Of a stretch of 33,476 bases of DNA, positions 26,444 to 32,239 are shown in pieces. The notes beneath the pieces were generated by a model. That model was not told where the DNA came from, did not search any database, and saw only the letters and a list, made by a program, of their open reading frames with translations. Location of the stretch: assembly GCA_902777615.1 (NCBI GenBank), contig CACYUQ010000010.1:1-33476 (forward strand), written 5' to 3'. How positions within the stretch are numbered: the stretch's first letter is position 1; the number at the start of each line of letters is the position of its first letter. Origin of the DNA: an uncultured Selenomonadaceae bacterium. GTDB lineage: Bacteria > Bacillota > Negativicutes > Selenomonadales > Selenomonadaceae. Both the position numbers and the translations under genes were made by a program.

Positions 26444-26484
26444 CTAAACGATAAAATTCCAATAGTATGAAGGAGGTTTTATCA

Positions 26485-26742
26485 TTGGCAAAGAAACTCA
26501 AACGGGAAGAACTCACGAAGGACATGGTGAAGAAAGCGTTGCGCTGCAAGAACGCCGACGAGCTTCTTGCGCTGGCGCAGGCTGAAGGCTACGAGATGAC
26601 ACGGGACGAGGCTGAGGCCTATATGGCGGAACTGGCGGACTTCGAGCTGGACGACGAGAATCTCAAAAATGTTGCTGGCGGCGGGTGCTACATGCTGTGC
26701 CCGCAAGAGGCAATTTCTTTACCTTTCAATGAGGAGAAATGA
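26485..26742 (+). CDS. Nif11-type leader peptide 3
   Basis: The start is placed at TTG 26485 because AAGGAGG (26470-26476) lies just upstream. The ATG at 26467 falls before that ribosome site and would add six unrelated residues. The 85-residue product begins MAKKLKREELTKDMVKKAL, keeps the DEAEAYMAELADFELDDE leader signature and has VAGG at 63-66. The predicted core is GCYMLCPQEAISLPFNEEK, with two cysteines. It ends two bases before the next gene's start, so it is co-transcribed. Confidence 0.86.
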   Translation: MAKKLKREELTKDMVKKALRCKNADELLALAQAEGYEMTRDEAEAYMAELADFELDDENLKNVAGGGCYMLCPQEAISLPFNEEK

Positions 26743-27497: not shown

Positions 27498-27591
27498 TAG
27501 CGTGTGAAATTATCATTAGGAAAACTGGAAGGCCGGTAATATCTGCTGTGCACAATAAGGCAACAATGATGCGGATTCGACTGGGATCATG

Positions 27592-27600
27592 TGGTATAAT
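27592..27600 (+). promoter_or_regulatory. extended -10 promoter for MTA/SAH nucleosidase
   Basis: TGGTATAAT fits the TGnTATAAT extended -10 pattern and has no good -35. Initiation near 27607 gives a leader of about 88 bases. Confidence 0.55.
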
Positions 27601-27694
27601 ATATTCGCTGAAATCTACGGATACACCACAAAACGGTTTAACGAATTGACACAGGAAAGATGGGAAAGCAGATTGGCGGAGGAGAGTGGAACGT

Positions 27695-28513
27695 ATGAAT
27701 CGTAGGGATTTTTTGCGACTGTCAGCTTTGGGGATGGCCAGCCTTTGGGGCAGTTCATTATTCATGGGAATGGCAACGGCGCAGGAAAAAATAAATACAA
27801 AGGTCGGCGTCATCGGTGCGATGGAATCGGAAGTCGCAAATCTGAAAAAAGCGATGCGGCTCACGCGGCGAACGGAAAAGGCGGGAATGGCATTCCATGA
27901 GGGAAGGATAGGGAACATGGACGCCGTTATCGTCCAATGCGGCATGGGCAAGGTAAATGCGGGCATTTGCGCCCAGATTCTCATTGATGAATTTGCTGTG
28001 ACGCATATCATCAATACCGGCATGGCCGGTTCGCTGAACCCCAAGTTGAACATCGGTGATATCGTGGTTGCGGTGGACGCCGTGCAGCATGATTTCGACG
28101 TGACGGCGATCGGCTTCAAAAAAGGGGAGATTCCCTATACGGGCAAGGTCGCTTTTGCGGCGGATCAGGAACTGCGGCAAAGGGCAATACAAGCCATCCG
28201 GAAGACGTTGCCGGGAATTGCCGCCGTGGAAGGAAGAATCTGCTCCGGCGACAAATTCGTTGCCTCCCAAACGGAAAAGGATCGGATCGTTGCGGAATTT
28301 GCCGGGGATTGCGTGGAGATGGAAGGCGGCTCCATTGCCCAGGTATGCTGCCTCAATGCAATCCCCTTCGTGATCTTGCGGACAATTTCCGACAAGGCCG
28401 ATGACAGCAGCCACATAGATTTCGCGGAATTTGAGAAGAACTCGTCGAAGAATTCTTCCAAGCTGACTCAATTCATGCTGGAGCATTGGCAGGAGGTTGC
28501 CTTCGTCCATTGA
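27695..28513 (+). CDS. mtnN: MTA/SAH nucleosidase with Tat-type signal peptide
   Basis: The enzyme cleaves the N-glycosidic bond of methylthioadenosine and S-adenosylhomocysteine. The core has VGVIGAMESEV, QCGMGKVNAG, NTGMAGSL, the substrate-binding VEMEGGSIAQVC and the catalytic RTISDKAD. The start is ATG 27695, because GGAGGAG ends ten bases upstream; the GTG at 27686 is too close to it. That gives an N-terminus MNRRDFLRLSALGMA...MATAQ, a twin-arginine motif plus hydrophobic core and a cleavable end. This suggests export, which is unusual for the normally cytosolic enzyme. The mature part, about 240 residues, is full length. Confidence 0.92.
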   Translation: MNRRDFLRLSALGMASLWGSSLFMGMATAQEKINTKVGVIGAMESEVANLKKAMRLTRRTEKAGMAFHEGRIGNMDAVIVQCGMGKVNAGICAQILIDEFAVTHIINTGMAGSLNPKLNIGDIVVAVDAVQHDFDVTAIGFKKGEIPYTGKVAFAADQELRQRAIQAIRKTLPGIAAVEGRICSGDKFVASQTEKDRIVAEFAGDCVEMEGGSIAQVCCLNAIPFVILRTISDKADDSSHIDFAEFEKNSSKNSSKLTQFMLEHWQEVAFVH

Positions 28514-28660: not shown

Positions 28661-28714
28661 CATGGCTAATGTGTAAAAATATAGGCGATCAGAGAAATCT
28701 GGTCGCCTTTTTGT
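28632..28714 (+). terminator. terminator segment, copy 2 of the duplicated block
   Basis: It is closely similar to 24313-24400, including the AGGCGATCAG/CTGGTCGCCT stem with TTTTT. Here it follows the Nif11 remnant, its likely original context. Confidence 0.8.
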
Positions 28715-28756
28715 TTTGGAAAATTTCGCGATGAGAGAAAAATGGTTTTCGAAAAA

Positions 28757-29261: not shown

Positions 29262-29356
29262 GCGGGGTGAAAGACTTGGTGAGATAATGCTATATGCTAA
29301 TGATGAAATTACTGGAATGATTGAGGAATAAGCATTCGACAAAGAAAGGGAATCAT

Positions 29357-30514
29357 ATGCATCACAAAGTTATGGAAGTGTTAGCGAACGCGACTGGAGG
29401 AAAAAGCTACAAAGCTCACAAATACAGTTTGGATCACGCCGAAATACCGTACATCGATTACGGTGAGGACAATATTGTTTGGGAGAAGACAGCGGAAACT
29501 AAGCCAACGAAAAACTATGTTCCGTTGTATGATTTAAGCATTGACCTAATGAACAATGATGTTCACCGATTCAGCTACTTTCTTGATGGGTCAAGGCGTG
29601 TTTATAAAGTCGATGATATTGCATTTCAAAAGGCGGGGGGGAGGACTGCTATATATCCCGTAATTGCTGGGCAAATTGGCATTGGTTGCTGCAAACGTGT
29701 AGGAAAAAAACTCACAAAAGAATCATTTGAGTATGAATGCGATATTTCCGTTCCTGACATCGCGGATTCTGATGGTAGAAATGGATTCTTTTCTGCAGTA
29801 GCGAAGAAATTAAAAAACGAGTGTGATGAATTGCGACGTCTCAACATATCGTTCAAAAAAATAATACCATATAAGACAGCAAACGTAGATAGTAAAAAAT
29901 ACGAAGACAAAGGGACTGCCTGCATCCAAGACAGAATGATTGAACTCGAAAAACAGGCTGTAGCTGAACTTGTGCGAAAGGGAAGGCTTGACCAAGACAA
30001 CTATTTGATTAAAGACGGCTCCTTGGAATATCGGCCTTCTAAAGAAGAGAAGCATGATTTAAGAAAAGCGATGACATTCAAGAACAATTACAATTGGGTT
30101 CTTGGCGTTTCTAAAAATTTCAACCCAGAAATTTGTAAGGATGTTAAAGGGAAGTCCAATCCTGGATTTATCGCCGAACTGCCTTTGTATCATAGAACAC
30201 CAGTGGCTATGTTCAAAAGTGAAGGAATGGAGTTTGCAGTTTGGTATATTAGAATTAGGGATAAGACAAAAACACGGACGCCGTTTGATGGAGTGATTAA
30301 AGTAGAAAAAATTCTAGTAAAAGACAAGGAAATAAATGAGGGGATAGATACAGAAGTAGTGAATATTTTGAGTGCATGCTTGGTAAATGAACGGATGCCA
30401 GTATGTTACGGGGCAGATTTACGATGGGCTAATCACATTTATCCTGTATATTTGACAGAATCATACATAAAGGCAAGATATGTGAGTACAGAATCATTTC
30501 TTCACCTATTCTAA
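29357..30514 (+). CDS. NurA-domain nuclease
   Basis: The 385-residue protein has the NurA pattern of an RNase H-like nuclease. FLDGSRRVYKV places the first acidic metal ligand at Asp77, a second acidic strand occurs at LIKDGSLEYR, then WVLGVSKNF, and a C-terminal helix follows YPVYLTESYIKARYVS. NurA enzymes work with HerA translocases to resect or degrade DNA. The ATG at 29357 follows AAAGGG at six bases; an upstream frame from 29321 lacks a site. Codon use is AT-rich, unlike the core genes. It is 15 bases from the HerA gene, so they are co-transcribed. Confidence 0.82.
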   Translation: MHHKVMEVLANATGGKSYKAHKYSLDHAEIPYIDYGEDNIVWEKTAETKPTKNYVPLYDLSIDLMNNDVHRFSYFLDGSRRVYKVDDIAFQKAGGRTAIYPVIAGQIGIGCCKRVGKKLTKESFEYECDISVPDIADSDGRNGFFSAVAKKLKNECDELRRLNISFKKIIPYKTANVDSKKYEDKGTACIQDRMIELEKQAVAELVRKGRLDQDNYLIKDGSLEYRPSKEEKHDLRKAMTFKNNYNWVLGVSKNFNPEICKDVKGKSNPGFIAELPLYHRTPVAMFKSEGMEFAVWYIRIRDKTKTRTPFDGVIKVEKILVKDKEINEGIDTEVVNILSACLVNERMPVCYGADLRWANHIYPVYLTESYIKARYVSTESFLHLF

Positions 30515-30529
30515 GAAGGAGGAATTACA

Positions 30530-32239
30530 ATGGGATCGAAGATTATAGGTAGAGTGATAGCAACCGAAAAAAATCCGACAACTATGGATGAATTCACATT
30601 TTGGACGGATTCGAATTTAAAATTACATGCGTTCGATATTGTAAAAGTTAAGCATGTGGATGGCTCATTCTCATACGGGGTTATTAAAAATATATCTCAC
30701 ATTACGGATGCTCAAAGTTTTTTGACGGGTTTTATTTCAAGTGATTTCGGAAACGTAGAGCTTGATGCGCCTACGCTACGTGTTGGCATGAATTATGTTC
30801 AAGCTGCAGTATCGTATAATGATGCTAATATTTATACACCCGTTCACAATGACGCACCGGTATATCTGGCGGAAGCCAATGAAATAATCGCAGCATTGGG
30901 GTTACAAAATATAAAAAATCCTTTGGTATGTGGCTCCTTAAAAATGTACGAAGGAACAGAGAATGAAATTACACTCCCAGTGATGATGAATTCAAAATTC
31001 ATTCTTGGTCCTGAAGGTGCACACCTGAATATTTCAGGTATATCAGGCTTAGCGTCGAAGACTTCTTACGCCATGTTTTTGATGAAGGCAATTCAAGAGC
31101 AAGGATTATCTGCATCTGAGGAAGATGAAAGTGTTGCTTTTGTTATCTTTAATGTCAAAGGCAAAGATTTGATGGCAATCCACAAAGAGAATGAATTCGA
31201 TGATTCCTTGAACCCCGACGAGGAAAGGGAACGGGTATTCGAAGAATATGAACAGCTTTCTTTAAGTACATTCCCATTTTCAAATGTTCATTATTTTATT
31301 CCGTACTCATCGAGCAATTCTGCTAGGCAAAGCACATATCTTTCTAAAGATCTAGTTAAAGAATACGTGAAGTCAAATATTTTACAAAAATATAAATTTA
31401 CCTATGAAGATGACAAAGAAAGCATTGAAATGTTGTTTGCAGACATTGATGATCCACAGCATACAATGGAAGCAATTATAAGCAAGATTATTGATCAAAA
31501 CGATTCTGATTTTGGCAATTTGAATACATGGGACGATTTCCGAGGTAAGGTTGATGAATTGTCTCAAAAAACGCAGAAAGCTACAGGAGCAAAAAGCGCA
31601 AATGAAATTCCTATTGTCAGCTGGAAAAAATTCAAACGGATAATAAACAGTGCAATCCGAAATGACGACATGTTTGCGAATCGTGCCGAAGCTTCAAAAC
31701 ATGAGTGCAGACTAGCTGACGAGTTAAAGAAGATAAAAGCTAATGATGCATTTGTGATTGATGTTGCAAAACTCCCAGAAGATAAACAGGCATTCGTCTT
31801 TGGCGATGCCCTTCGTACAATTTACAATCTTAAGCTTGGAGAATATGACGAAGAAGTAGATTCTCCTCCCAAACGTATTATTGTGTTTATTGACGAACTG
31901 AACAAATATGCTTCGAAAGATACCCCCAAAAGTTCTCCTATATTGAAGGAAATACTAGATGTGACTGAACGCGGGCGCTCATTGGGAGTTGTTCTTTTCG
32001 GCGCAGAACAGTTTAGGTCAAATATTCACCCAAGGGTAACGGGAAATTGCTCTACACATGCATATGGTAGGACAAATAGTATCGAGACTGCCACAGGGAA
32101 TTATAATAGCTTACCTTCAACTTACAAGAATATGCTTACAAGGCTTGAACAGGGAGACTACCTGATTCAAAATCCGGTGTTTCGATCGTTGTTAAAGATT
32201 AAGTTCCCGAAACCTATTTACAAGCAATTTAAAAGCTAG
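30530..32239 (+). CDS. HerA-like FtsK-fold DNA translocase ATPase
   Basis: The 569-residue protein has an N-terminal beta-rich HAS-barrel-like region (about 1-130) followed by a P-loop ATPase core. Its Walker A is non-canonical: GISGLASKTSY (170-180) keeps Lys177-Thr178 but has Ser where the preceding glycine is usual. Walker B is RIIVFIDELNKYA with Asp455-Glu456. The C-terminal GVVLFGAEQFRSNIHPRV and RTNSIETATG fit HerA/FtsK sensor and arginine-finger regions. HerA forms a hexamer that pumps DNA for NurA. AAGGAGG precedes the ATG. The AT-rich composition suggests transfer together with its neighbours. Confidence 0.85.
   Translation: MGSKIIGRVIATEKNPTTMDEFTFWTDSNLKLHAFDIVKVKHVDGSFSYGVIKNISHITDAQSFLTGFISSDFGNVELDAPTLRVGMNYVQAAVSYNDANIYTPVHNDAPVYLAEANEIIAALGLQNIKNPLVCGSLKMYEGTENEITLPVMMNSKFILGPEGAHLNISGISGLASKTSYAMFLMKAIQEQGLSASEEDESVAFVIFNVKGKDLMAIHKENEFDDSLNPDEERERVFEEYEQLSLSTFPFSNVHYFIPYSSSNSARQSTYLSKDLVKEYVKSNILQKYKFTYEDDKESIEMLFADIDDPQHTMEAIISKIIDQNDSDFGNLNTWDDFRGKVDELSQKTQKATGAKSANEIPIVSWKKFKRIINSAIRNDDMFANRAEASKHECRLADELKKIKANDAFVIDVAKLPEDKQAFVFGDALRTIYNLKLGEYDEEVDSPPKRIIVFIDELNKYASKDTPKSSPILKEILDVTERGRSLGVVLFGAEQFRSNIHPRVTGNCSTHAYGRTNSIETATGNYNSLPSTYKNMLTRLEQGDYLIQNPVFRSLLKIKFPKPIYKQFKS

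Follow-up and report, generated by a model that had tools for sequence, protein, structure and literature searches.

A predicted Tat-exported MTA/SAH nucleosidase in an uncultured Selenomonadaceae bacterium and its relatives with other export signals in gut microbes

An uncultured Selenomonadaceae bacterium encodes an MTA/SAH nucleosidase (MTAN) behind a conserved Tat-type signal, and a Tat-exported periplasmic enzyme acting on methylthioadenosine (MTA), adenosylhomocysteine (SAH) and 5'-deoxyadenosine from outside is the best explanation, held with moderate confidence. The gene lies in a window of 33,476 nucleotides, the whole stretch of DNA that was analysed (Table 1). Selenomonadaceae cells are diderm. 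The Tat pathway would export the folded MTAN into the periplasm, signal peptidase would release it at the predicted site, and the enzyme would then hydrolyse MTA, SAH and probably 5'-deoxyadenosine arriving from the surroundings of the cell. The products would be adenine, open to uptake, and a 5-substituted ribose, and SahH would deal with the cell's own SAH in the cytosol. The sequence supports export well, and from it we infer actual export and cleavage as well as the substrates, the uptake of adenine and the benefit of an exported MTAN.

Table 1. Positions of the MTAN gene and of its associated features in the window
Feature	Position	Strand	Basis
CDS of the MTA/SAH nucleosidase, predicted to be exported (272 aa plus stop)	27695..28513	+	NF004079, 257.2 bits (cut-off 169)
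Tat-type signal peptide MNRRDFLRLSALGMASLWGSSLFMGMATA, residues 1-29, predicted cleavage between ATA and QE	27695..27781	+	RR and FLR conservation; pLDDT <50 at residues 11-31
MTAN catalytic domain (PNP_UDP_1 fold)	27800..28489	+	profiles, alignment, AlphaFold2/Foldseek; carries E46, E210, D233
Ribosome-binding site ggcggaggagag	27675..27686	+	read from sequence; SD-like score 4.5
Weak sigma-70-like promoter candidate	27577..27605	+	9/12 matches
Terminator-like hairpin (11 pairs) and T run, about 170 bases past the stop	28683..28718	+	

The position of the open reading frame given in a preliminary description was confirmed, and its choice of start by ribosome site held: the ATG at 27695 is best, with a purine-rich AGGAG at 27680-27684 ending 10 bases upstream. 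An alternative GTG at 27686 abuts the ribosome site and would give just three extra residues. The promoter candidate is not significant, since five sigma-70-like sites were observed around the gene against 3.3 (sd 2.3) in shuffles; terminator-like sites numbered three against 2.9 (sd 1.7). The identity as MTA/SAH nucleosidase was borne out by PF01048 (E 7.8e-58), NF004079 and TIGR01704, the latter two exceeding their cut-offs (168.6 bits against 73.8 for TIGR01704), and a Pfam scan of the protein revealed no domain besides the MTAN domain. The three residues listed in Table 1 for the catalytic domain are, in order, the counterparts of E. coli Glu12, Glu174 and Asp197. Glu12 and Asp197 are named in the titles of PDB 1z5n and 1z5o. 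The catalytic E/E/D was unchanged in all 118 rows of the larger tree described below (79 of 79 exported, 39 of 39 unsignalled). An AlphaFold2 model built from an 18-sequence alignment had a mean pLDDT of 80.5, with values below 50 at residues 11-31. The 50 PDB matches shown by Foldseek were MTANs (E. coli 1jys among them) and a related enzyme, the futalosine hydrolase of Helicobacter; the nearest solved structures are also MTA/SAH nucleosidases. By family, modelled fold and catalytic residues the gene product appears to be an ordinary MTA/SAH nucleosidase, and hydrolysis of MTA and SAH is predicted.

A Tat signal is defined by a twin arginine in the n-region (RRxFLx), a weak hydrophobic core and an AxA-like site. 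The twin-arginine signal proposed earlier was recognised in the window N-terminus, MNRRDFLRLSALGMASLWGSSLFMGMATA followed after the predicted cleavage by QEK, and was compared in eight distinct complete sequences, the window's and those of seven orthologues 69-88 % identical to it. RRxFLR was kept in all eight and the A-x-A-Q site in seven (A-A-P-Q in L012), with a variable stretch between them, and each main start was preceded by an SD-like site with a score of 3.0-5.0. The hydrophobic core described before the catalytic domain is present, but it is weak in all eight sequences, as expected of Tat signals: the maximum, taken as the best 12-residue Kyte-Doolittle mean, was 1.42-1.57 in the eight Tat rows against 2.02-2.98 in four Sec rows and 1.85-3.66 in 56 lipoprotein rows, the signal classes being partly assigned by eye. 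The profiles for Tat signals matched below their cut-offs. TIGR01409 yielded 13.2-15.8 bits against 16.7, and PF10518 yielded 16.2 and 18.2 bits for the window and Schwartzia sequences against 22.7, with no match in L011. These matches to short models, with few matched residues, count against the Tat reading; they lower the claim and do not remove it. Judged from the aligned N-termini, the conserved Tat feature exceeds a chance resemblance.

A non-working signal or an internal start would turn the protein into a cytosolic housekeeping enzyme, which we consider unlikely. It is the sole MTAN found in the window genome, Met14, Met24 and Met26 are possible starts of a shorter protein, and the Tat profile scores favour such a form as well, but the internal ATG and GTG codons have SD-like scores of just 0-1.9, L011 has no internal ATG ahead of the domain, and SAH is already covered by SahH. 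Some TTG codons in the signal score up to 3.7, but they are located near its beginning or middle. The internal-start form was rejected on the weak internal SD-like scores together with the conservation of RRxFLR and of the cleavage site.

For the predicted export by Tat, the machinery is at hand. The window genome contains TatC twice, one copy beside a TatA-like ORF recognised by eye. TatC was detected in eight of nine genomes carrying a Tat MTAN, the window genome and seven of the eight others, the miss being a genome of 80 % completeness (G084). As TatC was also found in all 13 searched relatives without a Tat MTAN, in G062 as a marginal fragment only, its presence does not discriminate and indicates solely that the pathway is available.

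Export signals prevail among the nearest relatives of the window MTAN. From a GTDB scan the best 80 of 189 relatives were kept and 109 weaker ones left out; FMGMATAQ, a peptide pattern used for the scan along with five others, falls in the signal, which causes a small bias towards signal-bearing matches. The N-termini of the 80 loci were read, and their classes were assigned from the chosen start, the hydrophobic core and the presence of a lipobox or a twin arginine. The class rule alone assigned 63 of 79 loci as exported and 16 as not. The rule picked starts by ribosome score, which failed for some rows, and ten of the 16 were relabelled as exported by eye (L042, L053, L072, L076, L079, L080, L091, L095, L096, L116), least surely L096 and L116, in which a stop codon is followed by a short stretch resembling a lipobox. 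Among the best 80 of 189 loci there are thus 73 MTANs classed as exported (63 by rule, 10 by eye), six without signal and one unclassed (L114). Lipoprotein signals form the majority of the 73 (63 loci), next to five Tat signals, four Sec signals and one Tat signal plus lipobox in a member of the Coriobacteriia. According to the record titles, the lipoprotein hosts are affiliated to Clostridia (48), Coriobacteriia (11), Thermoplasmata archaea (3) and Bacilli (1); in the archaea the lipobox assignment is less certain, and the signals may be membrane anchors. Near relatives outside the Negativicutes are 47-57 % identical to the window MTAN, and the carriers include two named strains, Schwartzia succinivorans DSM 10502 and [Clostridium] aminophilum KH1P1. 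The titles of 55 of the 80 records match a word list for ruminant sources or rumen MAG series, a description and no test, because such genomes are numerous. Carriage of the gene on plasmids was rejected: 115 records of a plasmid collection matched, all below 60 % identity and 63 of them from Borrelia or Borreliella, and the best identity was 47 % among the matches listed (40 of the 115).

Two control draws gave a different picture from the 80 nearest loci. In 148 evenly drawn genomes of the Clostridia, the class of [Clostridium] aminophilum, 55 MTAN places were above the cut-off, two in the centre genome and 53 elsewhere. Forty of these 53 had frames below 255 aa, against 257 aa for the shortest exported protein. 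The N-termini of the 13 longer frames and of one short frame (252 aa) were read, and one MTAN of the 53 had an export signal (L188, Sec-like), the other N-termini read being unsignalled. In 149 genomes of the window phylum, 28 places besides the window gene were above the cut-off, none with a clear signal; of seven frames of at least 255 aa six were read, the seventh duplicating the coordinates and score of L184, and L196 is ambiguous at its start. With 73 of 80 near loci against one of 53 and none of 28, few MTANs overall are exported, but most of the nearest relatives are. In L188 (420-1649, + strand) a Cu_amine_oxidN1 domain (copper amine oxidase N-terminal) stands between the Sec-like N-terminus and the MTAN, another export route.

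A tree of 118 rows was calculated from the domain sequences, signals left out, after removal of seven duplicate or partial rows, eleven divergent rows, and L114 and L152 for want of a start codon. All Tat rows were placed on one side of a branch with an SH-aLRT of 98. A more careful tree was made from 65 selected rows and rooted with L148, L149 and L162. Here the Tat sequences formed one clade (support 99/96) inside a Negativicutes group of 25 with 14 unsignalled, eight Tat and three Sec sequences; the other main group was mostly lipoprotein. The five signal classes require 10 changes on the smaller tree and 11 on the larger one, in both cases without direction, and not every change of signal class is forced by the starred branches. 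Two sister MTANs of Selenomonas differ, L042 having a Sec signal and L044 an upstream region that does not read as a signal. This pair represents a recent change of targeting, in either direction, and L044 counts against the exported reading.

A second, cytosolic MTAN, whose existence had been left to be checked, was not found in the 92 % complete window assembly: its two PF01048 loci are the Tat MTAN and the purine nucleoside phosphorylase DeoD. SahH is present in the genome, hence a cytosolic MTAN copy is unnecessary for SAH. A family set comprised 121 Selenomonadaceae genomes (by record titles), evenly drawn from a larger group, of which the best matches were read. Nine of them possess the Tat form (window, G006, G020, G035, G051, G055, G084, G101 and a fragment in G106), and a high-similarity MTAN is absent from most of the 121. 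SahH was present in 113 of the 121 genomes and in seven of the nine Tat carriers, the two without a match being G084 and G106 (69 % complete), so the SAH route of the family is SahH. With its sparse occurrence and the widespread SahH, the Tat MTAN of the family looks accessory.

The search for MTAN, SahH and LuxS was extended to 50 host genomes of the 80 nearest loci, and the N-termini of second MTANs above the cut-off were read. Among the 45 genomes with an exported MTAN, 17 had an unsignalled MTAN only, 19 SahH only (one, G168, counted from a SahH fragment), two had both and seven neither; a Fisher test of SahH against unsignalled MTAN gave p 4.9e-5, the relatedness of the genomes ignored. 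LuxS was present in 15 of the 19 exporting genomes with an unsignalled MTAN versus one of the 26 without. Since SahH or an unsignalled MTAN accompanies the exported one in 38 of the 45, the latter looks like an accessory copy. The seven genomes with neither route above the cut-off count against this picture; among them, G156 has MTAN fragments, G169 and G134 have sub-cut-off matches of 134 and 102 bits, and G136 has a second lipoprotein MTAN.

Export may also serve the cell's own waste: the enzyme would split excreted MTA and 5'-deoxyadenosine in the periplasm and recover adenine without a cytosolic MTAN. This is possible at rather low probability. It agrees with DeoD as the only other PF01048 gene found in the window genome and with the excretion of MTA and 5'-deoxyadenosine by cells lacking MtnP, as stated in the accessible part of PMC8102628, but 19 of the 45 exporting genomes have an unsignalled MTAN too, thus waste handling is not the general reason. 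A periplasmic MTAN acting on nucleosides from outside remains the preferred reading. The export claimed in the preliminary description is supported by the conserved Tat signal, by TatC and the TatA-like ORF, by the relatives with other export signals and by SahH, and action on external MTA, SAH or deoxyadenosine is a plausible prediction. Nothing pointed to the role in signalling that had been considered as well, and LuxS was not found in the window genome.

MTAN is viewed as a housekeeping enzyme of the cytosol and as a drug target. The cytosolic MtnN/Pfs of E. coli and V. cholerae (NF004079, TIGR01704) shares family, fold and catalytic residues with the window MTAN, which differs by its additional Tat-type signal and by a genome with SahH in which LuxS was not found. 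The lipoprotein MTANs of gut Clostridia, Coriobacteriia and Thermoplasmata archaea (e.g., L048, [Clostridium] aminophilum) have the same catalytic residues and an export signal, but theirs contains a lipobox in place of the Tat signal, and many of their hosts keep an unsignalled MTAN. According to the accessible part of a paper from 2020 (PMC7557402), most bacteria have a single cytoplasmic MTAN, and no organism other than Borrelia burgdorferi is known to have three, of which two are exported. These two, Bgp (BB0588) and MtnN (BBI06), are thought to bring adenine from outside and are reported with signal peptides; Tat is unmentioned in that part of the paper, whereas the window MTAN has a Tat-type signal. 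Borrelial plasmid MTANs are 26-33 % identical to it among the matches listed, chromosomal Bgp left out, and are not close kin; the window MTAN therefore looks like a separate case. Bgp is reported there as an MTAN and glycosaminoglycan binder (PMC7557402, same part), and the window protein might by analogy be an adhesin or act in signalling, or degrade a nucleoside signal of neighbours. This is very unlikely, given the low identity to the borrelial plasmid proteins, the single domain of the window protein and the failure to find LuxS in its genome.

Exported MTANs are thus known from Borrelia, while for a Tat-exported MTAN or a gut group of exported MTANs no report was found in the open-licence literature, a weak absence. 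We give even chances to a wider proposal, in which microbes of the gut and rumen, from several phyla and including archaea, would share surface or periplasmic MTANs with a repeatedly exchanged signal (lipoprotein, Tat, Sec, none), apparently moved between lineages, that scavenge MTA, SAH and 5'-deoxyadenosine of the community to free adenine. If exported MTANs are common in gut microbes, these communities may share SAM by-products as a purine source outside the cell, inhibitors of MTAN would not have to enter such cells, and annotations assuming cytosolic recycling are wrong for these enzymes.

The gene neighbourhood was inspected in 88 loci, among them five duplicates of places already in the set, and the MTAN ORF was recovered in 78. 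A conserved operon was rejected: no neighbour family recurred at a fixed place across many of the 78 loci, and neither a transporter nor a ribose pathway was seen in a conserved operon with the gene. In 34 of the 78 loci an ORF of 90 aa or more lies on the same strand within 120 bases, but these ORFs differ. Some neighbours are suggestive, and several of these look like exported enzymes. A 5'-nucleotidase with a lipoprotein-like N-terminus lies 23 bases upstream of the MTAN in L049. In L091 and L100 the gene is adjoined by a HAD phosphatase that has a signal or anchor, with a relative nearby in L067 and L078, and a sodium symporter follows 16 bases past L047. The Tat MTAN is adjoined by a choloylglycine-hydrolase-like protein with a signal-like N-terminus in Schwartzia and L038, and has a Tat-signal carboxylesterase nearby in L041. 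A 5'-nucleotidase also precedes the unsignalled MTAN of L021, which counts against the neighbour argument.

Further ORFs were observed around the MTAN genes. In the window, a Nif11-like leader peptide ORF (26467-26742, + strand; PF07862 27.1 bits, cut-off 23.8; TIGR03798 32.1 bits, just under 32.3) is a likely RiPP precursor, and five loci of the neighbour set, counting the window, contain an ORF related to it. Two adjacent ORFs of 397 and 569 aa (29321-32239, + strand) had no Pfam or NCBIfam match at E 0.001 and look NurA/HerA-type by eye, an impression only. In L041, a 71-base piece (1835-1905, + strand) located some 2.65 kb before the Tat MTAN gene is a 97 % identical copy of an internal part of that gene, and G035 has a 25-residue match similar to this copy. 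The Selenomonadaceae contain a second, divergent PNP_UDP_1-like group with the motif I(Q/E)GAMxxE, 20-29 % identical to the MTAN described here; three scanned members (L174, L031, L029) reached 99-105 bits with NF004079, below the cut-off. Sec-type N-termini occur in this group in L174 (125-943, - strand) of Schwartzia and in L031, a tandem array in G092.
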